Assembly: GCA_027315165.1 (NCBI GenBank)
Contig: DAHUYN010000007.1
Span: forward strand, 74,260 to 112,470
Origin: Thermoplasmata archaeon
Lineage (GTDB): Archaea > Thermoplasmatota > Thermoplasmata > Lutacidiplasmatales > UBA184
DNA length: 38,211 bases
Direction: 5' to 3'
A program made the translations under genes and the position numbers. This document shows, one piece after another, positions 23,649 to 34,154 of the stretch. Position 1 is the stretch's first letter. Every line of letters begins with the position of its first letter. The notes beneath the pieces are model-generated. The model did no database searches, was not told where the DNA came from, and saw only the letters and a list, made by a program, of their open reading frames with translations.

Positions 23649-24389
23649 CTACGCGCTCGCGTGGACCGTGACGTCGAGGAAGAGCGCCGGCCGGTCGCCC
23701 GTGTTCCACGACGCGTGCGGGACCTCCTTCGGGATGAAGTAGGCGTCCCCGGCCTCGATCGTCACGCGCGTCGCCTTTCGGATGGTCCGGCGTCCGCGCC
23801 GCACGGAAAGGACCATCTCGTGCTCGAGCGCCCCCGAGAGGCAGACTCCGGCCTGGAGTGCGGGATGGGAGTGCGGCGTCCCGTGGTAGCCGACGGGCAG
23901 CTCGTAGTAGGCGAACTCGGCCTCGGGGGTCCTCGCGACCACGAGCCGGCGCCCGCCCACGGCGTCCGCCCGGCTCCAGCTCTGCCCCTTCGCCGGCGCG
24001 GGTCGCGCGACGAAGGCGGAGAGGGCGCCGGGGTCGCGCTCGGTCATCATCACCTCGAGGAGGACGAGAGGACGCGCCGGATCGACCCCGAACTCGTGGG
24101 GGAGGTGGGGAGGGATGTAGTAGCAGTCGCCCGCACCCACGGGGGTCGCGCGCGTCCGCTGGACCACGCGGCCGCCCCGAACGCTCCCCTCGACCCAGCT
24201 GTGGACCCCACGACCCGAGACGACGACGTCGAGCTGGGCCGCGGCGTGTTCGTGCAGGGGGTTGTGGAAGCCCGCATCGAGGCGGTGGATCATGAGCCGC
24301 GTGCCCGGAACCTCGACGAGGACCCGCTGGGCGAGGTGGGGGCCGATCTGCTCCCAGTCCTTCTGTTGGCCGGACAGGACGCGGGTCAT
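23649..24389 (-). CDS. Bicupin protein
   Basis: 246 residues with two cupin barrels. Domain 1 (about 1-120) has the metal motif HEHAAAQLDVVVSGRGVHSW and a later PHLPHEFG. Domain 2 (about 130-246) has HSHPALQAGVCLSGALEHE and VPHASWN. Both keep histidines able to hold a metal ion. Bicupins include dioxygenases, decarboxylases and sugar isomerases; no substrate can be assigned. ATG at 24389 is chosen because a TGTTTTGTAC box lies 26 bases upstream. Confidence 0.82.
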   Translation of the reverse strand: MTRVLSGQQKDWEQIGPHLAQRVLVEVPGTRLMIHRLDAGFHNPLHEHAAAQLDVVVSGRGVHSWVEGSVRGGRVVQRTRATPVGAGDCYYIPPHLPHEFGVDPARPLVLLEVMMTERDPGALSAFVARPAPAKGQSWSRADAVGGRRLVVARTPEAEFAYYELPVGYHGTPHSHPALQAGVCLSGALEHEMVLSVRRGRRTIRKATRVTIEAGDAYFIPKEVPHASWNTGDRPALFLDVTVHASA

Positions 24390-24410
24390 CGTCGGAGCGA
24401 CCGAGTACGG

Positions 24411-24420
24411 GTACAAAACA
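24411..24420 (-). promoter_or_regulatory. TATA box for the bicupin gene
   Basis: Minus-strand TGTTTTGTAC, centred about 26 bases before the ATG at 24389. Confidence 0.6.
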
Positions 24421-24496
24421 GGTCTCTTCCGGCCCGCTGCGGGCCGGCCGGCCTCCGCGTCGCAAACGCCATTCCCCCGCGAGGCGTCGCGGCGGC

Positions 24497-25417
24497 ATGG
24501 CTGCGCTGGCGGCATCGAACGCGTCGGTCGGGTTCGTCGGACTGGGCCAGATGGGGGAGCGGATCGCCTCGCGGCTGCTCGGGCACGGCCCGACGCTCGT
24601 CGTCTCCTCGCGCGACCCGGCGCGGCGGGCCGCCTTCGAGGCGAAGGGGGCCAAGGGCGCGCGCCGTCCGAAGGAGCTGGGACGCCTCGTCGGCGACGGG
24701 CTCGTCTTCGTGATGGCGCGGGACGGCCGGTCCGTCGCCTCGGTCCTGTTCGGCGCCTCGGGGCTCGCGGCCGGGCTCGCGCCCGGCGCACTCGTCATCG
24801 ACCTCACGACGATCCGCCCGGAGGAGGCGCGGGCCTCCGCCGCGAGGCTCGCCGAGCGCGGGATCCACTACCTTGACGCGCCGGTCGGCGGCTCGATCGA
24901 CGCGGCGAGCGAAGGGAGCCTCGTCTTCTTCGTCGGCGGGGAGGCGAGCGACCTCGAGCGGGCCCGGCCGTGGTTCGAGCGCCTCGGCCGACGGGTCGAG
25001 CACTTCGGACCGGTCGGGATGGGCAGCGCGGTCAAGCTCGTCAACAACCTGCTGACGATCGGTCACGTCGCGCTCCTCGCCGAGGCGTTGGCCTTCGGCG
25101 AGGGGATGGGTCTCGAACGGCCGAGGCTCCTCGAGGTCCTCGCGACCGGAGGCGCCCGGAGCGTGATGCTCGAGCGCAAGCGGGCCCAGCTGCTCGAGCG
25201 TCGGTACGTGCCGGAGTTCCGCCTCGCGCTCGCCGTCAAGGACCTCGGCCTCGTCGAGGCGAGCGCCCGGGCGGCCGGCGTCCCCGTCGCGATGACACGC
25301 GAGGCGCGCCGGCTCGCTCGAGAGGGCGTCGCGGCGGGCCACGGCGACGAGGACTTCTCGGTCCTTTTCGAGGCCGCGCTCGCCCGGCGACAGCCGGTCG
25401 GGCCCGTGGCGGCCTAG
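24497..25417 (+). CDS. Beta-hydroxyacid dehydrogenase (3-hydroxyisobutyrate dehydrogenase family)
   Basis: 306 residues. NAD(P)-binding motif GFVGLGQMG (12-20) with a following S-S-R suggesting NADPH preference. Substrate-binding motif DAPVGGSIDAASEGSLVFFV, catalytic lysine K180 in GMGSAVKLVNN, and the all-helical C-terminal dimerisation domain. Members oxidise or reduce short beta-hydroxy acids or semialdehydes (3-hydroxyisobutyrate, tartronate semialdehyde, glyoxylate); the exact substrate is open. It ends on a CTAG shared with the stop of the convergent SDR gene. Confidence 0.9.
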   Translation: MAALAASNASVGFVGLGQMGERIASRLLGHGPTLVVSSRDPARRAAFEAKGAKGARRPKELGRLVGDGLVFVMARDGRSVASVLFGASGLAAGLAPGALVIDLTTIRPEEARASAARLAERGIHYLDAPVGGSIDAASEGSLVFFVGGEASDLERARPWFERLGRRVEHFGPVGMGSAVKLVNNLLTIGHVALLAEALAFGEGMGLERPRLLEVLATGGARSVMLERKRAQLLERRYVPEFRLALAVKDLGLVEASARAAGVPVAMTREARRLAREGVAAGHGDEDFSVLFEAALARRQPVGPVAA

Positions 25418-26301
25418 GCGCCCGTCGTCGCGCCGACGAGCTCCCACAACCGGTCACCGACCGTGGTGTCGAGCGCCGCCCGGGAGGGCTGGGCGACGCG
25501 GGACCGGACGACGTAGGACCCGGTCGCGCTCCCGAGGCCCGGGTCGACCGCCGCCGCGACGACCGTACGGGCGGCCCGCTTGGGGGAGATCGCGAGGAGC
25601 ATCGCCGCCCGGAGGCCCCAGCCGGCCGCGCTGCGGTCGTTCGCGCCGAACCTCGAGCGCACGAACCCGGGGTGGACCGAGAGGTAGCTCACGACCTCGG
25701 CCGGCTCTCGCCGAGCGAAGGCGGCGGTGAGCAGGATCAGGGCGAGCTTCGAGCGGCCGTAGGCCGACCAGCCGCGGTACCGGGCGCGACCCTCCGGGTC
25801 CGCCAGGTCGAGGTGTTGGCCCCGGTGGGCCGCCGAAGCGACGTTGACGACGCGCGCCCCGCCGCCGGCGGCGCGCAGGGTCGGGGCGAGCTCCCGCGTG
25901 AGCAGATAGGGGGAGAGGACGTTCAGGGCCCAGGTCCGTTCGTGCCCCTCCGCCGTCTCCTCGCGCCGTCCGAAGATGGCGCCGGCGCAGTTGACGAGAC
26001 GGTCGACACGGGGATGGTCGGCCCGGATCCGGGCCGCCGCGGCCCTCACCTCCGCGAGCGAGCTGAGGTCGGCCCGGATCGGCGCCGCGGGCGGGACCGT
26101 GCCGAGGGCGCGAAGCCCGTCGACGGCCGCGCGAATGCGGGCCGGGTCCCGGCCGACGACCACGACCTCGAAGCCGAGCCGCGTGAGCGCGCGAGCGCTT
26201 TCGAAGCCGATCCCCGACGTCGCCCCGGTGACGACCGCCACCGGGGGTCGTCCGCCGGCCGGGGTCGCCAAGGCGGCCGCGGGCGCGTCGGGCTGGGGCA
26301 T
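25414..26301 (-). CDS. SDR family oxidoreductase (retinol dehydrogenase-like)
   Basis: 295 residues. Rossmann motif VVTGATSGIGFESA, VNCAGAIFG, NVLSPYLLT, active-site S in VNVASAAHRG and an intact YGRSK catalytic motif followed by HPGFVRSRFG. The order and spacing resemble the retinol-dehydrogenase/WWOX-like group of classical SDRs, whose members reduce hydrophobic carbonyls. The first 18 residues are an Ala/Pro-rich extension. It begins 22 bases after the stop of the PKD/winged-helix regulator on the same strand, so it could be the last gene of that transcript. Confidence 0.87.
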   Translation of the reverse strand: MPQPDAPAAALATPAGGRPPVAVVTGATSGIGFESARALTRLGFEVVVVGRDPARIRAAVDGLRALGTVPPAAPIRADLSSLAEVRAAAARIRADHPRVDRLVNCAGAIFGRREETAEGHERTWALNVLSPYLLTRELAPTLRAAGGGARVVNVASAAHRGQHLDLADPEGRARYRGWSAYGRSKLALILLTAAFARREPAEVVSYLSVHPGFVRSRFGANDRSAAGWGLRAAMLLAISPKRAARTVVAAAVDPGLGSATGSYVVRSRVAQPSRAALDTTVGDRLWELVGATTGA

Positions 26302-26323
26302 GGCTCCTCCGGCGCTCGGCCGC

Positions 26324-27664
26324 TCACCACTCGCGCTTGAGGGAATCCCGCGGGGCGCCGGGTCGGTTCCGGCGCATCTCCCGCGCGAGGGCCTCGCCGC
26401 GCATCGACAGTCGATAGACCTTGAGGCGGCGCGGCTGGCCCTGGACGTGCTGGAGCTCCTCGATGACCAGGCCCGAGGAGGTGAGACGACGCAGGACGTT
26501 GCTCACCTGGTTCTGCCCCGTGCCGAGCCGGTCGCTCATCCCCTTCTGGGTCCAGGCGAGCGTGGGAATGTCGTCCGGCCCGAGGGTCGGGAGAGAGCCC
26601 AGGTAGGCGACGAGGTCCCGCGACCAGCGTCGGGGCTCGGACGTCGCGGGCGACCCGCCCGGGACCGGAACGCTCGTCGGGACCGGGGGCTGGATCGTCG
26701 GGCGAGGCGTCAGAACGACCCGGGCGGCGCTCGCGAGACCCGCCGGGGCCGGTTCGGAGAGGGCCGCCGCGCCGGTGGCCTCGGAGCTCTCGGCCGCCCC
26801 GAGCGGAGCGGGCAGCGGAGCGCCGACGGGGCCGAAGGCCCCCGGCGGTACGGCGCCGTAGCCGCTCCCGTCGTCGAGGTCGTCTCGAGGGGCGCGGCGA
26901 CGTCGGCCGTTGTAGTAGACGCCAAAGGTGAGCCCGCCGCCGAGGATCCCCGCGCCCGCGAGCGTCGCCGGGCCGAGCTCCGAGGTCGGCGACGCCGAGG
27001 CCGCCGGAGAGACCGAGAGCGAGAACGAGGCGGCGCCGGTGCTGTTGGCCGAGTCCGCCACCGCGAGGGCGACGCTGTAGGTACCGGCGGCCCGGAACGT
27101 GTGCGAGACGACCGGCCCCGCGGCCGAGGTGCCGTCCCCGAAGCTCCAGTCGAAGGTCGGGTAGGTCCCCGTCCCGCCGGAGACGACCGCGCGGAAGACG
27201 ACGGAGAGAGGAGAGGCGCCGGCGGAGGGCGTGGCGGAGATCGCCGCGACGATCGGGCCGTTCGCGACCGCAACGGTCGTCGAGCCGGCGACGACGCCGG
27301 CGGACTCCGTGACCGTCGCGACCGCCGCGAACGATCCCACCGAGACGTAGCGGTGCGTCACGTCGAGCGCGCCCAGGCCCGCGCCGCTCCACGAGGCCCC
27401 GTCGCCGAAGCTCCACGAGACGGACGTCGGGGTCCCCGAGCTGACCGTCGCGCTCAGGAGCACGGTGAGCGGCACGGCACCGGACGTCGGCGTCGCGCTC
27501 ACCGAGACCAAGAACGGTGAGGTCGCGAGGGCCGGCTGCGCGGCGGCCGAGCCGGCGAGGGCCAGCAACGGAAGGGCGAGCACTAGCGCCACCCCCCCGA
27601 GGAGGGCCGGCGTCGGCGCGAGACTCGGCTCGGCACGTCGGCGTCGTGCTCGTCGATCGACCAC
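26324..27664 (-). CDS. Membrane-spanning PKD / winged-helix regulator
   Basis: 446 residues with an unusual order. Basic N-terminus and signal-type helix (about 17-43, ending SAAAQPA), PKD domain 1 (about 50-134, motif SWSFGDG, VTHRY), PKD domain 2 (about 137-220, FDWSFGDG, VSHTF), a Gly-rich hydrophobic span (about 231-251) followed by the stop-transfer YNGRRRR, a 95-residue Pro/Ala-rich linker, then a winged helix-turn-helix (about 347-430). The last has recognition helix NQVSNVLRRLTSSGLV and wing QGQPRRLKVYRLS. The predicted topology puts PKD outside and the DNA-binding domain in the cytoplasm. It follows a kelch/PKD surface gene after 52 bases. GTG start; TATCCGATA and a CTAAGAAC box lie 20-38 bases upstream. 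The regulatory role is inferred from architecture. Confidence 0.82.
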   Translation of the reverse strand: MVDRRARRRRAEPSLAPTPALLGGVALVLALPLLALAGSAAAQPALATSPFLVSVSATPTSGAVPLTVLLSATVSSGTPTSVSWSFGDGASWSGAGLGALDVTHRYVSVGSFAAVATVTESAGVVAGSTTVAVANGPIVAAISATPSAGASPLSVVFRAVVSGGTGTYPTFDWSFGDGTSAAGPVVSHTFRAAGTYSVALAVADSANSTGAASFSLSVSPAASASPTSELGPATLAGAGILGGGLTFGVYYNGRRRRAPRDDLDDGSGYGAVPPGAFGPVGAPLPAPLGAAESSEATGAAALSEPAPAGLASAARVVLTPRPTIQPPVPTSVPVPGGSPATSEPRRWSRDLVAYLGSLPTLGPDDIPTLAWTQKGMSDRLGTGQNQVSNVLRRLTSSGLVIEELQHVQGQPRRLKVYRLSMRGEALAREMRRNRPGAPRDSLKREW

Positions 27665-27680
27665 TGGGTTCCGCTCTGGC

Positions 27681-27691
27681 AGTATCCGATA
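27681..27691 (-). promoter_or_regulatory. TATC/GATA inverted element before the PKD/winged-helix gene
   Basis: On the plus strand AGTATCCGATA: the half-sites TATC and GATA flank a single base. The core resembles the GATACAC/GTGTATC elements in the divergent region at 30704-30736. It may be a TATA-region operator or simply a promoter element. Confidence 0.35.
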
Positions 27692-27716
27692 GGGGTTCTT
27701 AGTCTAGGCGTAGGCC

Positions 27717-30662
27717 TCATCCTCCCGCTCCTCCCCGCCGCCGGTGCTCCCGGCGGCGCATCGCGAGGAACAAAAGTGTGACCCCGACCGTCGCAACGGC
27801 GAGCGCCGCCGCGACGAGCGCGGGGGAGACGGGGGGCGGGGGCGCGACCGTCGGGCTCCCGGTCAGCGCGGGCGGTCCCACGCCGTCGACCTGGATCGTC
27901 GCGAGGACCCGGACGAGGACCTCGCCGGCGCCGTCGGTCGCGGTGAGGACGGGGTCATAGCTCCCGGGGACGGCGTAGCGGTGTACGACCTCGGTCCCAT
28001 TGACCGATGGCGAGGAATCGCCGAAGTTCCACGCGTAGACCACCGGCGCGACGCCCCCGATCGAGGAGGCGAGGAAGGTGACGGTGAGGGGGCCGGCGCC
28101 GGTCTGGCTCGTGATCGAGTAGCCGACGGCGAACGGGAGTCCGCTCCCCGAGCTGCCGCCGCCTCCCGACCCGCCGCTCCCCCCCGACCCGCCTCCGCCC
28201 GACCCGCTGCCCGTCGTCGCCGTGCCGTTGCCGGTGACGGTCGTCGAGCTCGCGTTGAGCTCGGTCGGGAAGACCCAGGTGTCGTTGAGCAGCCAGCCGG
28301 CGTCGCTCCCGCCGAACAGCACGAGAACGCCCTCCGCCCCGTCGTAGGCCATCGCGGCCCCGTCCCGGGGGAGCGGCGCGGCGACGCTCGGGCCCGTCAG
28401 GTTCGTCCACGCCCCGCTCGTGTAGGCCCACGTCTCCTGCGTGACGACGCACCGGCCGTTCACGGACTGCGAGCCCCCGTAGAGGACCACGGCCGCGTCG
28501 ACGCCGTCGTCGCCGCCCGCGGGAAGGATCGCCGAGGGAGGCGCGGTGACTCCACCCTGCTCGGACCAGGTGCCGCTGGCGTAGCGCCACGTGCCGCCGT
28601 TGGGATAGCAGGTCCCGGGAGCCCCGCCCGAGGAGATCGAGGAGCCGCCGTAGAGGACGACGGCAGAGACGGCGGCGTCGTAGACGGCGACGCCGCCGGT
28701 CGTCGGTGCCGGCGCGATCGTGAGTTGGGAGGTGACGTTCTCCCACACCCCCGCGCGGAACTCCCAGGTGTCCGCGTCGACCTGCGGGGCCGCGCCCGCC
28801 GGGCCCGCCGAGCTCCCCCCGAACACGAGGACGTAGCCGTCGTAGGCATCGAACGACGCCTGCGCGTCGGCGCGAGGCGAGGGGCCGCGGACGGAGAGGG
28901 CGTGCCAGCCGGTCCCGTTGAAGATCCAGGTGTCCCCGAGGTAGTCGGCTCCGTTCGTCCCGCCGAAGAGGACCAGGTCGCCGTCGATCGGGTCGGTGAC
29001 GAACGACCCCCCCCACCTGGGGGACGGCCCCGGCCCGATCCCGGCCGTCAGGTCGATCCAGACGTTGTTGACGAACTCCCAGGTGTCGCCGAGCGCGAGA
29101 CCCCCCGGGCCCTCGCCGCCGAAGAGGATCGCGGCCGAGAGACCGGGGTCGTAGGCGAACTGGGCGGCGCTCCGCGCCGACGGGGCGTCGGGCAGACCGG
29201 CGCCGACGTTCGCCCACTGGTGCGCGCCGGCCCAGGTGTCCAGCACCTCCACCGGGGTCGTGCGGACGATGCCTGCGCCGCTCGCGTCGTAGACCGTGAG
29301 CGTCGCCGAGTAGTTCCCCGGCAGCCCGTAGGCGTGGCTCACGTTCGCCGTCCCGTTGAGGTCGTTCCCGTCCCCGAAGCTCCAGAGGAAGCGGTACGGG
29401 GGCGAGCCGCCGGCGCAGGAGACCTCGAAGGCGGCGACGAGCGGCGCCGGCCCGGCCGTCGGCGACGCCGTGACGACGAGCGAGAACGGCGCCGGGGCGA
29501 GCGCCCACGTCTCGTCCACGGCCGCCGGCGCGGCTCCGCCAAAGAGGATCGCCTCCCCGAGCAGGGGGTCGTCGACGAGCGAGGCGCCGACGCTCGACGG
29601 AGGCGCCCGGCCGACGTCCGCGGTGACGTTGAACCAGCTCGCGCTGCGGTAGAGCCACGTGCCGGCCACCGCCGTCGAGGAGGACGGCCCGGAGCCGTCC
29701 CCGCCCAGGAGCACCGCGCCGCCGAGGAGGCTCGAGTACGCGAAGGCGGCCGCCGCGCGCGGCCCAGGGCCCGAGACGGAGGCCGCCGGCCCCGAGAGGT
29801 TCTGCCAGCCCGAGGCCGTGAGGGCCCACAGGGGATCGAAGAGCGTGTGGCCGCCGCCATCGGTGCCGCCGAACACGAGCAGCGCGCTCGTCGACGGGTC
29901 GTACACCGCCGCGGCCAGCGTCCGCGGGGACGGCGCGGCCCCGGGAGGGAGCACGAGCCGGCTCCAACCGGAGGCTCGGTGGACCCAGGTGTCGTTCTCG
30001 GGCATCCCCGAGGCCGAGGCACCGCCGAACAGGACCGGCCCGCCGAGGGCGGGGTCGTCGGCCATCGTCGCCCCGCTCCGGGCGCTCGGCCCCCCGAGCG
30101 CGCGCGTCGGCTGCCAGACCGACCCGTTCAGGACCCAGGTGTCGCCGAAGCAGTGGGAACCGTCGGTCCCTCCGAACAGCACGAGCTCGGCGGAGGCCGG
30201 GTCGTAGGCGACGGCGGCCCCCCAACGGGCCTCGGGTCCGCCGCCATTGCCGTCGACGGTGGACCACCCGGCCCCACCGAATCGCCAGGTATCGCCCAAC
30301 GCCGTCCCCGTGGCGGAACGGCCCCCGAAGACGACGACCCCGGGGAGAGAGGGGTCGAACGCCGAGGCCGCGAAGTCCCGGGCCGAAGGCGAACGGGCGA
30401 GGGTGGGCGTGAGGTCGATCCAGGTGCCGGACCCTCCGGCGGTCGCGGTCGGGGCGCTCTCACAGCCCCCGGGGGGTCCGCCCGGGCACGAGGGGCCCGC
30501 CGGCCCCACCCACGGAGCGCTCGCCGCCCTCGGGCCCGCCGGGAACGCGCCGCTCGAGGGCAGAGCGAGGAGGACGACCACGAGCGTCGACGCGACCGCC
30601 GGCGCGGCGGCCCGTCGTCGCCACAACGACCTCGACGGCCGCGCCCCGGGCGCCGTTCGCAT
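27717..30662 (-). CDS. Cell-surface protein: two kelch propellers, PKD domains, C-terminal membrane anchor
   Basis: 981 residues from the ATG placed by a TATA box. Signal peptide after an Arg-rich start (AAAPAVASTLVVVLLALP). First propeller (about 55-390) with six kelch-type blades, each with LFGG followed by D-T-W-x-F/L and a tryptophan. PKD domain (about 390-475, LWSFGDGN). Second propeller (about 478-805), again six blades. A Gly/Ser linker (about 819-837), second PKD (about 844-925, AWNFGDSS), one transmembrane helix (about 940-964) and an Arg-rich cytoplasmic tail. Many N-x-S/T sites suit glycosylation. Likely an adhesin or ligand-binding surface protein. It is transcribed toward the PKD/winged-helix regulator and is divergent from a second kelch/PKD gene. 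Confidence 0.88.
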   Translation of the reverse strand: MRTAPGARPSRSLWRRRAAAPAVASTLVVVLLALPSSGAFPAGPRAASAPWVGPAGPSCPGGPPGGCESAPTATAGGSGTWIDLTPTLARSPSARDFAASAFDPSLPGVVVFGGRSATGTALGDTWRFGGAGWSTVDGNGGGPEARWGAAVAYDPASAELVLFGGTDGSHCFGDTWVLNGSVWQPTRALGGPSARSGATMADDPALGGPVLFGGASASGMPENDTWVHRASGWSRLVLPPGAAPSPRTLAAAVYDPSTSALLVFGGTDGGGHTLFDPLWALTASGWQNLSGPAASVSGPGPRAAAAFAYSSLLGGAVLLGGDGSGPSSSTAVAGTWLYRSASWFNVTADVGRAPPSSVGASLVDDPLLGEAILFGGAAPAAVDETWALAPAPFSLVVTASPTAGPAPLVAAFEVSCAGGSPPYRFLWSFGDGNDLNGTANVSHAYGLPGNYSATLTVYDASGAGIVRTTPVEVLDTWAGAHQWANVGAGLPDAPSARSAAQFAYDPGLSAAILFGGEGPGGLALGDTWEFVNNVWIDLTAGIGPGPSPRWGGSFVTDPIDGDLVLFGGTNGADYLGDTWIFNGTGWHALSVRGPSPRADAQASFDAYDGYVLVFGGSSAGPAGAAPQVDADTWEFRAGVWENVTSQLTIAPAPTTGGVAVYDAAVSAVVLYGGSSISSGGAPGTCYPNGGTWRYASGTWSEQGGVTAPPSAILPAGGDDGVDAAVVLYGGSQSVNGRCVVTQETWAYTSGAWTNLTGPSVAAPLPRDGAAMAYDGAEGVLVLFGGSDAGWLLNDTWVFPTELNASSTTVTGNGTATTGSGSGGGGSGGSGGSGGGGSSGSGLPFAVGYSITSQTGAGPLTVTFLASSIGGVAPVVYAWNFGDSSPSVNGTEVVHRYAVPGSYDPVLTATDGAGEVLVRVLATIQVDGVGPPALTGSPTVAPPPPVSPALVAAALAVATVGVTLLFLAMRRREHRRRGGAGG

Positions 30663-30684
30663 CGGTCCCGTTCCTATCGGGAGC

Positions 30685-30692
30685 CTTTTAAA
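30685..30692 (-). promoter_or_regulatory. TATA box for the double-propeller surface gene
   Basis: TTTTTAAA-like run (plus strand CTTTTAAA), centred 27 bases before the ATG at 30662. It fixes the start there rather than at upstream in-frame codons, which would add 45 Arg-rich residues ahead of the signal peptide. Confidence 0.7.
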
Positions 30693-30703
30693 CCGCGACC
30701 TAG

Positions 30704-30740
30704 GATACACGCCCGATACACGCCCGCGGGTGTATCGGGC
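30704..30740. repeat. GATACAC/GTGTATC repeat cluster in the divergent surface-gene promoter region
   Basis: Two exact tandem copies of GATACACGCCC (30704-30714, 30715-30725) are followed by GTGTATC in inverted orientation (30730-30736). Copy 2 and the inverted copy form an 11-bp-arm dyad, GCCCGATACAC...GTGTATCGGGC (30711-30740). It lies upstream of the TATA boxes of both divergent kelch/PKD genes, where a shared operator would be expected. Confidence 0.6.
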
Positions 30741-30795
30741 CTGTACGGGGGGGCGGCGCGGCTCCGCCCACCGGGTCCCGGGAGGGCGGGGGACC

Positions 30796-30805
30796 AAAGC
30801 TTTTT
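30796..30805 (+). promoter_or_regulatory. TATA-like box for the surface gene at 30836
   Basis: AAAGCTTTTT, centred about 36 bases before the TTG start, predicting a leader of roughly 10 bases. Confidence 0.45.
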
Positions 30806-30835
30806 CCCGCCGACCCCAGGATAACTACCGGTCCC

Positions 30836-33025
30836 TTGAGGCACTCGACCCTCGCCCCCGTTGCTCACCGTCGCGGCCGGCTCGCCGCGCTCGTGCTCGC
30901 GGGCCTTCTCCTCGGCGTCTCGCTCGGGGCCGGCGGTGGCGGCCACGGGGGCTCGCTCCCACACGGGCCGAAGGTCGCTGCGGCGATCCCCTCGTGCTCG
31001 AGCGCTCGGGGAGCCCCGACGTGTCCGCCCGCGTCGGTGCCGGTCACGCCGTCGGTCGCGGCCGACCGCTGGTCGAACGTGACGGCCGCACAGCACTACC
31101 CGCCCCCCGGCCTCGTCGGCGCGAGCCTGGCCTACGACGCCGCCGACAACTACGTGATCCTGTTCGGCGGCTGCACCGCGACCCGCTGCCCCGCCGCGGC
31201 CCAGACCTGGAAGTACGCGGGCGGCCAGTGGACCAACCTCAGCGCGACCGCCGGGAGCCCGCCGCCGGCCCGCGCCTACGCGAGCATGGGGTTCGACTCC
31301 CGGGACGGCTACGTCGTTCTGTTCGGAGGGCTCGGCGCGGGCGGTCCGCTCAACGACACCTGGTCGTTTAGCGGGGGCCTCTGGCACAACCTCACCAATC
31401 TCTCGAGCGCGCCCCCGGCCCGCTACGCGGCCGCGATGGCGTTCGACCACGCCGACAACTTCCTCGTCCTCTTCGGTGGCTGCGGGGCCCAGGTCTGCCC
31501 GAGGAACGACACCTGGCAGTTCCTGGCGGGCGGCTGGAAGAACGTCACCGCGCTCGCCGGCTCGGCTCCGTCACCCCGCTTCGGGGCGTCGTTCGCCTTC
31601 GACGCGGGCGACAACTACGGGCTCCTCTTCGGCGGCTGCGGGCGCGTCTGCCCGCTCGGCGACACCTACGAGTTCTCTCGAGGTCGGTGGGTCGCGCTCG
31701 CGCCGGCCGTCAACCCACCGGCCCGGTCGTTCGCCGCGCTCACCTACGCCTCCGTCACGAACGAGACCTACCTCTTCGGGGGCAACGCGGGCGCCGCGGG
31801 CCTCAACGACACCTGGCGGTTCACGGCCGGCCGGTGGAGCGACGTGACCGCGAGCCTCGGCGCCGCGCCGAGCCTCCGGTACGGCGTCGCCTCGCTCTCG
31901 AGCACCGAGACGTGGACGACCTCCGGGGTCAAGCGGCTGCTGCCCTACGCGCCGTTCTACGGGGGCGCCAACGCGACCTGCCCGAACTGCACGGGCAGCG
32001 CTCCGACGCAGACGTGGATCCTCGAGCCGACGCTCTCCGGCAGCGCGAGCGCGCTGCCGAGCGTCGTCGAGGTCGGAGAGACCGCCTCCTTCAGCGGCAG
32101 CGCGAGCGGCGGCTCGCCGCCGTACGCCTACCTCTGGCAGTTCGGCGACGCGGCCTCGCAGGCGGCCCAGAGCGCGACGCACGCCTACGCGACCACGGGC
32201 AGCTTCTCGGCCGGCCTGACCGCGACCGACCAGGCCGGGGTCTCCGAGACGTTCCCCGTCGCGGTGAGCGTCGTCGCCGGACCGACGGTCCGGCTCTCGG
32301 TCCAACCGACCGTCACGGACGTCGGCCGGCCCGTGAGCTACTCGGGATCCGTCACGGGGGGCACTCCCCCGTACGCGGAGACCTGGAGCTTCGGGGACCT
32401 CACCGGCTCCGCCTCGCTCTCGACGACGCACGCCTACGGCGCCCCGGGGAGCTACGATGTCCAGCTGCACGCGACCGACTCGGTCCAGGGCTACGGGGAC
32501 GCCTTCGGCGCCGTGACGGTCCACCCGCTGCCCACCGTGCAGGCGCTCCCCTCGACGCTGACGCCGACCGCCGGCGCGGCCGTGACGTTCTCCGCCACCG
32601 TGAGCGGCGGCACCGGGCCGTTCGCCTATCGGTGGACCTTCGGGGACAATGCCTCGAACACCTCGGCGGACACGAACCACACCTACGCGAACGCCGGCAC
32701 CTTCCGCGCCTCGGTCCTCGTGACGGACGCCGTCGGCGGCTCGAGCCAGGCGAACCTCACGCTCGACGTCGGAGCCGCGGGAGGGGCGGGAGGGTCGAGC
32801 GTCCCGATCCCGGTGCTCCTGTTCGGGGCCGTCGGCACGGTCGCCGTCGTCGCGGTCGTCGCGGGGCTGCTGCTCGTGCGCCGCCGCCGCCGCACGCCGC
32901 CGACCTCGCTGGCCGCGGCCCCCGCCGACGGGCCCTCCTGGGTCGGCGAGGAGGAGGAGCCGGCGCCGCGGAGCAAGCGGGCGCTCCGCCGAGACCTGGA
33001 ACGGTTCTACCGGCGCCGTACCTGA
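30836..33025 (+). CDS. Cell-surface protein: kelch propeller, three PKD domains, C-terminal membrane anchor
   Basis: 729 residues. Signal peptide (HRRGRLAALVLAGLLLGVSLG), a six-bladed kelch-type propeller (about 70-395; LFGG...D-T-W-x-F in each blade), three PKD domains (about 398-482, 483-565, 566-648; LWQFGDA, TWSFGDL, RWTFGDN), a transmembrane helix (about 657-680) and a 48-residue charged cytoplasmic tail with EEEE and Arg-rich clusters. Three blades carry paired cysteines in the same loop (CTATRC, CGAQVC, CGRVC) and a later CPNC, likely disulfides. The start is TTG; no ATG or GTG in frame would keep the signal peptide intact. Same architecture as the divergent neighbour, but with one propeller. 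Confidence 0.85.
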   Translation: MRHSTLAPVAHRRGRLAALVLAGLLLGVSLGAGGGGHGGSLPHGPKVAAAIPSCSSARGAPTCPPASVPVTPSVAADRWSNVTAAQHYPPPGLVGASLAYDAADNYVILFGGCTATRCPAAAQTWKYAGGQWTNLSATAGSPPPARAYASMGFDSRDGYVVLFGGLGAGGPLNDTWSFSGGLWHNLTNLSSAPPARYAAAMAFDHADNFLVLFGGCGAQVCPRNDTWQFLAGGWKNVTALAGSAPSPRFGASFAFDAGDNYGLLFGGCGRVCPLGDTYEFSRGRWVALAPAVNPPARSFAALTYASVTNETYLFGGNAGAAGLNDTWRFTAGRWSDVTASLGAAPSLRYGVASLSSTETWTTSGVKRLLPYAPFYGGANATCPNCTGSAPTQTWILEPTLSGSASALPSVVEVGETASFSGSASGGSPPYAYLWQFGDAASQAAQSATHAYATTGSFSAGLTATDQAGVSETFPVAVSVVAGPTVRLSVQPTVTDVGRPVSYSGSVTGGTPPYAETWSFGDLTGSASLSTTHAYGAPGSYDVQLHATDSVQGYGDAFGAVTVHPLPTVQALPSTLTPTAGAAVTFSATVSGGTGPFAYRWTFGDNASNTSADTNHTYANAGTFRASVLVTDAVGGSSQANLTLDVGAAGGAGGSSVPIPVLLFGAVGTVAVVAVVAGLLLVRRRRRTPPTSLAAAPADGPSWVGEEEEPAPRSKRALRRDLERFYRRRT

Positions 33026-33038
33026 CGCGCGCGCGCCC

Positions 33039-33194
33039 TCACTCCGCGTCGACGCCGCAGACCTGCTCGGACCCGCGCGTGCGCGAGCATTCTTCGCAGA
33101 CCATCCGGGCCGGCCCTGGCGACGCCGGCGACCGCCGCGGAACGTGGAACAGCGTCGGGCATCCGCAGACGGGGCATGGCTGGATCCGGTTCAT
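33039..33194 (-). CDS. Small zinc-ribbon protein
   Basis: 51 residues with a CPVCGC knuckle near the N-terminus (C7, C10, C12), then VCEEC (C33, C36) and C46, so four cysteines could bind zinc as C-x2-C...C-x2-C. The start ATG is followed by a basic loop (HVPRRS). A weak CTCAAGA box lies about 28 bases upstream. No family or function can be named. It is preceded on the same strand by the pirin gene, 87 bases away and separated by a hairpin. Too short to be certain, but the cysteine spacing is unlikely by chance. Confidence 0.55.
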   Translation of the reverse strand: MNRIQPCPVCGCPTLFHVPRRSPASPGPARMVCEECSRTRGSEQVCGVDAE

Positions 33195-33240
33195 CGACGG
33201 GCGACGGTCGCGACGGGTCTTGAGGGTTGTCCGTCAAGGG

Positions 33241-33257
33241 GACGGCGGGGTGCCGTC
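33241..33257 (-). terminator. Hairpin between pirin and zinc-ribbon genes
   Basis: GACGGC-GGGGT-GCCGTC, a perfect 6-bp stem with a 5-base loop, 25 bases past the pirin stop. No T-run follows on the minus strand, so its role as a terminator is uncertain. Confidence 0.3.
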
Positions 33258-33281
33258 GCCCAAGGGCCCGGCCCCGCGCGC

Positions 33282-34154
33282 CTACTCCTCGAGCACCGGG
33301 GCGCGGTGCTTGACGAAGTCGCCGCGCCGAAGCTCGACGACGGCCTGCGAGAGCTCCTCGGGGCGGTTCATCACGATCGGGCCGTACCAGGCGACCGGCT
33401 CTCGCAGCGGCCGGCCCGTCACGAAGAGGAACCGGCCGCCGTCGGGCCCGGTCGAGACCGACACGCGCTCCCCCTCGCCGAACAGGGCGACGTGGTCGGC
33501 GCGGACCGCGGGGGCGCCGGGGGCGAACGAGAGGCTCCCGTCGATCACGAAGGCGAGCGCGGTGTAGCCGCGGCGGGCCGGCAGCTCGAGCGTTGTCGAC
33601 GAGGGGAGCTCGACGTCGAGGTACGTGGGATCGACCGGGATCCCGCGGACCGGCCCCTCGACGCCGTCGTGCCGTCCGGCGATGACGTGGACGCGGCCCC
33701 CCGTGGGCAGGGAGAGCCTCGGGATCTCGTCGGTGCCGACCCCGCGGTAGGCCGGGGTCGACATCTTCTCCGACGCCGGGAGGTTCACCCAGAGCTGGAA
33801 GCCTCGGAGAAGCCCGTCCCGCTGCTCGGGCATCTCCTGGTGGATGATCCCGCTGCCGGCGCTCATCCACTGAACGTCGCCCGCGCCGATGACCCCCTCG
33901 TTGCCGAGCGAGTCCCCGTGCGCGACGCGCCCGTCGAGCATGTAGGTCACCGTCTCGATCCCCCGATGCGGGTGCCAGGGGAACCCCGCGACGTAGTCGT
34001 GGGGGTCGGCCGAGCCGAAGTGGTCGAGCAAGAGGAACGGGTCGAGCTTGGGGACCTCCCGGTTGCCGAACAACCGGCGGAGGCGGACTCCGGCGCCCTC
34101 GAGGGTCTCCTGGCCCTTGTAGAGGGTCTCGACGGGGCGGATCGCTTCGGGCAT
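33282..34154 (-). CDS. Pirin family protein
   Basis: 290 residues, a bicupin. The N-terminal barrel carries the pirin metal site: HPHRGIETVTYMLDG (H and H), HGDSLGN and IIHQEMPE (H, E). The second barrel (about 170-280) lacks an obvious metal site, as is usual. Pirins are iron proteins reported as quercetinases or redox-linked regulators; the role here is open. ATG start; a CTTATCC box lies about 35 bases upstream. It is divergent from the MFS transporter gene. Confidence 0.9.
   Translation of the reverse strand: MPEAIRPVETLYKGQETLEGAGVRLRRLFGNREVPKLDPFLLLDHFGSADPHDYVAGFPWHPHRGIETVTYMLDGRVAHGDSLGNEGVIGAGDVQWMSAGSGIIHQEMPEQRDGLLRGFQLWVNLPASEKMSTPAYRGVGTDEIPRLSLPTGGRVHVIAGRHDGVEGPVRGIPVDPTYLDVELPSSTTLELPARRGYTALAFVIDGSLSFAPGAPAVRADHVALFGEGERVSVSTGPDGGRFLFVTGRPLREPVAWYGPIVMNRPEELSQAVVELRRGDFVKHRAPVLEE

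Follow-up and report, generated by a model that had tools for sequence, protein, structure and literature searches.

We propose that a stretch of 38,211 nucleotides from a Thermoplasmata archaeon (GenBank assembly GCA_027315165.1, contig DAHUYN010000007.1, positions 74,260 to 112,470 of the forward strand), hereafter the window, carries a two-protein cassette in which a surface receptor and a membrane-tethered regulator with a winged helix-turn-helix (wHTH) domain control their own operon, a reading that we regard as moderately probable. The proposal is built on the architecture, the predicted wHTH fold, the gene order, the fusions, the tail motif and the promoter repeats seen in the sequence, from which we infer the mechanism, that is, the sensing, the contact between receptor and regulator, the DNA binding and the sign of the regulation. 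The proteins in question, in window coordinates, are the following.

26324-27664, minus strand: protein with two PKD domains, a transmembrane span (TM), a linker and a winged helix, candidate membrane-tethered regulator, 446 residues, GTG start (Pfam, AlphaFold2)
27017-27511, minus strand: its two PKD domains, about residues 52-216 (Pfam, AlphaFold2, Foldseek)
26912-26974, minus strand: its putative, weak membrane helix, residues 231-251, Gly-rich and hydrophobic and followed by RRRR (maximum of the 19-residue Kyte-Doolittle mean 1.18)
26369-26641, minus strand: its winged-helix domain, residues 342-432 (AlphaFold2, family alignment, profile search of the Protein Data Bank (PDB), Foldseek)
27717-30797, minus strand: kelch-PKD surface protein 1 (kelch1), first gene of the two-gene operon, without the tail motif described below (Pfam)
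30836-33025, plus strand: kelch-PKD surface protein 2 (kelch2), divergent, TTG start at 30836, without the tail motif (Pfam)

An earlier reading of the same DNA, made from its letters alone (the sequence-only reading), had described these three open reading frames (ORFs) as a PKD/wHTH protein beside two kelch/PKD surface proteins. All three are present where it placed them, Pfam finds kelch and PKD domains in both neighbours, and the description as a whole is confirmed. In the regulator, Pfam finds the two PKD domains with an E-value of 8.9e-24. The whole-protein AlphaFold2 model (16 sequences; mean predicted local distance difference test (pLDDT) 73.2, predicted template modelling score (pTM) 0.35) has a signal helix at residues 20-37, PKD blocks with pLDDT of 87-97, a long disordered linker between the span and the wHTH (pLDDT <50) and the wHTH at 342-432, where the ten-residue blocks have pLDDT of 92-97 and the first block alone 82. 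When modelled alone (18 sequences), the wHTH has a mean pLDDT of 87.4 and a pTM of 0.75, and the C-terminal winged helix that had been claimed for residues 347-430 is thus a confidently predicted fold at 342-432. Of the signal peptide, PKD domains and membrane span claimed with it, the signal helix and the PKD domains stand, while the span at 231-251 is weak, with a best 19-residue mean of just 1.18; it aligns with the stronger spans of most relatives. The layout may be that of a transmembrane one-component regulator, with the PKD and wHTH domains present and the span weak here and stronger in most relatives.

In Foldseek searches, the PKD part of the whole model matches collagenase ColG (target-normalised template modelling score 0.85), the whole model also matches the archaeal S-layer propeller-and-PKD protein 1l0q, and the wHTH alone has its best matches, which are weak (best E 1.6e-3), among folds of the MarR/PadR/HxlR type. 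No helix-turn-helix (HTH) family scores above the Pfam cut-off when the protein is searched singly; among 40 family members searched against Pfam at E<=0.01, HTH_Crp_2 is matched by 17, PadR by 16 and MarR_2 by 13, and a 25-row family profile searched against the PDB finds the PadR-family protein Rv3488 (E 4.2e-6). Fold and sequence similarity together place the domain in the MarR/PadR winged-helix superfamily, with the Foldseek support being weak. It is noted that in regulators of the ToxR/CadC type the DNA-binding domain is N-terminal and the outside domain C-terminal, with ToxS being the partner of ToxR. By contrast, the wHTH is C-terminal here and the signal helix and PKD domains are N-terminal, and so the topology is the reverse, as had been stated from the sequence alone; also, no propeller/PKD receptor is known to take part in the ToxR-ToxS and TcpP-TcpH pairs. 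Note also that haloarchaeal DUF7345 proteins pair with a C-terminal wHTH, possibly in the same order of outside domain, span and wHTH; in the present group DUF7345 is missing from all 41 genomes searched, the window's own included, and of 14 control genomes Haloferax volcanii alone has it.

The cassette is one of dozens, and its regulator also occurs free of an ectodomain or fused to a surface protein, which the sequence-only reading had overlooked. In the genome of the window (2.04 Mb, 61 contigs) the wHTH is present at five places. A single-sequence search finds it in 40 of 61 genomes, and the 25-row profile has matches at E<=1e-8 in 216 of the 300 genomes searched from the class, a count that includes other architectures. 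The 17 named loci with a close wHTH relative all belong to Thermoplasmata metagenome-assembled genomes, one of them of Candidatus Lutacidiplasma silvani, and an acid-soil origin is taken from the Lutacidiplasmatales paper PMC9287336 and from the isolate names. Our classification covers 88 wHTH frames from 84 loci, one of which is the window, where the loci were picked by score rather than exhaustively, the wHTH matches of family f2 of the order were left out of the locus reading, and the frames run from stop to stop, with some being too long N-terminally, above all L114 (2298 residues). The architecture of PKD, transmembrane span and C-terminal winged helix, for which a search had been suggested, recurs in 39 of these frames (PKD-TM-wHTH); 19 are TM-wHTH, five are kelch-PKD-TM-wHTH, 11 have no span, four are N-terminal, seven are STAND-like (Pfam on four) and three are long frames with FN3 or similar domains (Pfam on two). 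Single-chain kelch-PKD-TM-wHTH fusions are found at L044, L070, L081 and L139. The idea that every wHTH match in the class marks a cassette was rejected, since the readable ones outside the order carry the domain near the N-terminus; in several of them it precedes, as judged by eye, a P-loop ATPase.

A same-strand PKD/kelch gene lies directly upstream at 33 of the 37 PKD-TM-wHTH loci that have room for one and at 15 of the 19 TM-wHTH loci (three more having another large protein there), with the corresponding number for the no-span wHTH loci being 2 of 10 (six more with another large upstream protein). Among control gene-like ORFs of the same loci the number is 12 of 247 (Fisher 2.8e-32, where this and the other p-values are inflated because the loci share descent, to be counted with the points against our reading that are weighed below). 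In the nine loci with another large upstream protein, that protein matches an NHL or YNCE propeller in four and has no Pfam match in five, and the five of the nine that were viewed have, by eye, a signal-like start. The gap from the surface gene to the PKD-TM-wHTH gene is -4 to 97 bp in the PKD-TM-wHTH loci where it was measured, with a four-base stop/start overlap between the surface and wHTH genes at several loci. All five copies in the window's own genome adjoin a PKD/kelch gene: copies C59, C10 and C22 lie downstream of it on the same strand, C2 is a fusion flanked by two PKD/kelch genes, and C33 is divergent. Conservation of the kelch/PKD neighbourhood, which the sequence-only reading had suggested checking in relatives, is seen in three genera of this family and, outside it, in one further family of the order, where L069 retains the upstream PKD gene and the PKD-TM-wHTH gene. 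Based on these counts, the conserved unit is a surface-protein gene followed by a wHTH gene, which in the window is kelch1 followed by the PKD-wHTH gene, with kelch2 divergent.

Such adjacency might also arise with no signalling at all, if the PKD/kelch islands grew by duplication and the wHTH were a structural appendage that does not bind DNA, or an anchor of the chromosome to the membrane. It is true that the genome has 76 PKD_4 matches, which are often clustered, so that adjacency is partly expected, and that the Foldseek E-value for the wHTH is poor. However, control genes from these same PKD-rich loci show less adjacency, the wHTH is far better conserved (79%, relative to the G007 counterpart, L047/L084) than the protein in its entirety (50%), and the promoter has repeats, as described below. 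We hold this explanation to be highly improbable.

The next piece of evidence, missed by the sequence-only reading, is what appears to be a conserved motif in the cytoplasmic tails of most surface partners. The partner tails tend to share a sequence of about [RK]REGxxLVxEL, at a mean of 10 residues past the span. A position-specific scoring matrix trained on 32 partner tails, with the score cuts 2 and 5 chosen afterwards, gives 19 partner tails held out from the training scores distinct from those of 26 other PKD/kelch tails (p 1.2e-6), and also sets apart nine partners with other ectodomains (p 6e-5). A score of at least 2 is reached by 45 of 51 partner tails (14 of the 19 held out), 7 of 9 partners with other ectodomains and 1 of 25 non-partners, a 26th being too short for this count; for a score of at least 5 the numbers are 37 of 51, 5 of 9 and 1 of 25. 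The sole non-partner tail that passes (L101, 6359-10438) itself adjoins a wHTH gene. The motif starts on average 26 residues ahead of the stop (41 tails), and an origin from a Shine-Dalgarno sequence was rejected, as the motif is tied tighter to the span (standard deviation 3.9) than to the C-terminus (standard deviation 5.9). In the stretch after the scan-picked span, scores are below 0 for the four kelch fusions scored and for 36 PKD-TM-wHTH proteins. We read the motif as a putative docking helix that would be unneeded where regulator and receptor form one chain. In the FN3 fusions L108 and L110 the stretch scored lay away from the main span and is uninformative on tails.

The main rival to our reading, because the window's receptor kelch1 is without the motif, is that the PKD-wHTH protein is a stand-alone one-component regulator that senses alone, with the surface proteins being mere targets such as adhesins. 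That 39 of the 88 frames have an ectodomain of their own and that a fusion would combine sensing and regulation in a single chain are both consistent with it. However, 19 frames have a span with no detected PKD/kelch ectodomain and 11 have no span, most of them in the same position, and the motif that is common among partner tails is nearly missing from other PKD/kelch tails, which argues against mere targets, since these would need none. We thus consider the stand-alone regulator unlikely, yet to be reckoned with.

The third line of evidence for the receptor-regulator cassette comes from the promoter, with the following two elements.

30685-30692, minus strand: TATA-like TTTAAAAG, 30 bp before the kelch1 ATG
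30704-30745, no strand assigned: candidate operator, GATACACGCCC twice at 11-bp spacing, overlapping an inverted repeat (repeat analysis)

The candidate operator lies between the probable kelch1 ATG at 30662, which is more likely the start than the TTG at 30797, and the kelch2 TTG at 30836, and the divergent promoter that had been named from the sequence alone (30663-30835) is thus found to hold a repeat-rich candidate operator. The inverted repeat at 30704-30745 has 16-nt arms (94%) and an 8-nt spacer. None of 300 mononucleotide shuffles attains the repeat score of the region, and among 220 window tiles the only one to do so is the tile containing the repeat. In the whole genome the pattern GTATC-N6-GTATC has two sites, both ahead of PKD-TM-wHTH operons (0 for the reversed-pattern control), the second (C10:25317) lying 83-98 bp upstream of the first ATG in the operon of the C10 paralogue. 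GTATC stands at -46/-57 at kelch1, singly at -47 at C10 and at -49/-60 at L053. In 37 same-genus genomes the pattern has 11 sites (1 for the reversed pattern), of which four precede PKD genes or cassettes: those of the window, C10, L053 and L143, the last at about -49/-60 before a PKD gene that borders the end of its contig. GTATC is also the top word in a comparison of 5-7-mers among promoters (uncorrected p 4e-7): within 150 bp it is present in 19 of 48 promoters of cassettes, in 8 of 31 of non-partner PKD/kelch genes and in 9 of 178 of other genes, and at -62..-44 in 13 of 48, 2 of 31 and 0 of 178, respectively. The longer YGTATCTCC was tried as a genome-wide marker and is not useful, with 5 matches versus 14 for its reversed control. 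No RNA family scores above the gathering score in 26000-33500.

Based on our model, the first gene would give a single-span surface protein whose outer part consists of beta-propeller and/or immunoglobulin-like (PKD) domains and whose cytoplasmic tail is short, and the second a wHTH protein that a span of its own usually anchors in the membrane and that here exposes two PKD domains on the outside. Receptor and tethered regulator would be produced together; outside binding or contact would rearrange the pair, probably via contacts between PKD domains or between spans, with the juxtamembrane tail helix of the receptor taking part in most family members. The rearranged pair would then alter the wHTH, which is probably a dimer and would bind the GTATC repeats, inverted as well as direct, that lie a short way upstream of the TATA box, regulating its own operon and, in the window, the divergent kelch2. 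Activation is our guess for the sign, because the repeats are upstream of the TATA box. A further rival holds that the protein is cut within or close to its span in response to a ligand or to contact, and that the linker and wHTH are thereby freed to reach the DNA. The long disordered linker and the family members without a span in the scan are consistent with such release; however, a tethered wHTH can bind DNA too, and we take release to be quite unlikely.

Several observations weigh against the receptor-regulator cassette. There is no upstream partner at L045 (where the neighbour is divergent), L101, L106 and L107. At the cut of 5 only 8 of the 19 held-out tails pass, and their median score is 4.0 versus 15.35 for the training tails. 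In the window, the kelch1 tail scores -8.1, though its counterparts in L047 and L083 score 16.0, and the kelch2 tail scores -0.8; the partners in L048, L086 and L069 appear to be without the motif, and the surface gene of L079, directly after the TM-wHTH gene, scores -12.6. A simple frameshift was considered as the origin of the kelch1 tail and rejected, as no motif is seen by eye in any frame beside L047 and L083; the motif may have been lost or replaced. The span of the regulator is weak. At C10 the paired site is oriented oppositely to that of the window, at 7 of the 11 GTATC-N6-GTATC sites no PKD, kelch or wHTH gene is detected in the surrounding stretch analysed, and 35 of the 48 cassette promoters have no GTATC at -62..-44, a count that, like the others on promoters, takes the first ATG as the start of the other genes. 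GTATC as a cassette-only element was rejected, as it lies within 150 bp of 8 of 31 non-partner starts; it suits a subset, and other cassettes may have other sites. The earlier interpretation is thus partly supported, namely in the predicted wHTH fold, the recurring architecture, the neighbourhood and the candidate operator, and weakened by the absence of the kelch1 tail motif and the weak span.

In layout the cassette appears to work most like the LytTR Regulatory Systems, which are described (PMC6193735; this and the other papers compared here are cited from the parts available to us) as a LytTR regulator and a membrane inhibitor, with direct repeats immediately before the promoter of the operon and with autoregulation. 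Both are minimal systems that pair a membrane protein with a transcription regulator, direct repeats near the promoter are found here as well (11-bp-spaced, upstream of TATA, with GTATC at -62..-44 in 13 of 48 cassettes), and the autoregulation reported there is only proposed for the cassette. By contrast, the cassette has a MarR/PadR-like wHTH that is usually membrane-bound, together with a large propeller/PKD surface protein; the Pfam matches of the 26324-27664 protein include no LytTR domain, a winged helix being present instead. ToxR and the TcpP-TcpH pair (PMC11323476), the former with ToxS, are alike in joining a transmembrane transcription regulator to a membrane partner. ArnR and ArnR1 of Sulfolobus are membrane-bound one-component regulators controlling surface structures (PMC6396743), and so share with the cassette the archaeal host, the membrane and the proposed control of surface structures; they differ in having an N-terminal HTH and two C-terminal spans, with no large ectodomain in that description. 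SusR of Bacteroides is a periplasmic binder of maltose whose DNA-binding region lies close to the C-terminus, and some SusR-like regulators co-localise with susC/susD-like genes (PMC3878776). It differs in having a putative HTH unlike the domains of other regulators, in belonging to the Bacteroidetes and in that the description mentions no PKD or kelch; our analyses of the cassette give no relation to SusR. Outside sensing with a C-terminal DNA-binding end thus has a precedent in SusR. The layout itself was unfamiliar to the sequence-only reading. In open-licence PubMed Central papers we found no description of this layout of a surface protein and a PKD-TM-wHTH protein, none joining PKD, Thermoplasmata, winged helix and transmembrane, and none joining PKD domain, transcriptional regulator, transmembrane, archaea and helix-turn-helix; by word search, kelch, PKD and winged are absent from the main text of the Lutacidiplasmatales paper PMC9287336 as available.

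Some further observations concern the neighbours and relatives of the cassette. The ACTAAGAACCC stretch in 27665-27716 is intergenic in the window, near the end of kelch1, and lies within the coding tail in L047 and L083. The C10 paralogue operon has three genes, encoding a Gly/Ser-rich protein, the receptor and the regulator; the first (L043:12642-13235, minus strand) is a secreted-looking single-span protein of 197 residues. At L054, L090, L091, L093 and L098 a PKD protein without the tail motif is followed by a PKD protein with the motif and then by the PKD-TM-wHTH protein. The wHTH is C-terminal on large AAA_16 ATPases at L111:9845-12829, L112:7011-10241, L117:7048-10140 and L138:9767-12670, three of which have MalT-like TPR matches, as if the wHTH had replaced the LuxR-type end that MalT has. 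The FN3-repeat fusions L108:394-5121 and L110:4947-9878 have, by eye, an apparent second winged-helix-like stretch directly before the family wHTH. Elsewhere in the window, 23649-24791 (minus strand) encodes a two-cupin protein with a long Arg/Pro-rich N-terminus that resembles an overlong ORF call.

Finally, we suggest tentatively, as something that may well turn out otherwise, that these cassettes form a new archaeal signalling class, with propeller/PKD adhesin-like receptors, a docking helix, a co-encoded and usually tethered wHTH, autoregulation, and repeated fusion, splitting and ectodomain swapping. The pairing of a large surface protein with an often membrane-tethered DNA-binding protein looks like an unstudied mode of sensing the outside and switching surface genes. 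To our knowledge, little is understood of how archaea translate contact at their surface, or ligands outside the cell, into transcription. Here a two-gene unit recurs for which an operator and a docking motif are predicted, and therefore the receptor, the regulator and the DNA site would each be testable with recombinant material. If the model is true, each genome would hold parallel surface-sensing channels.

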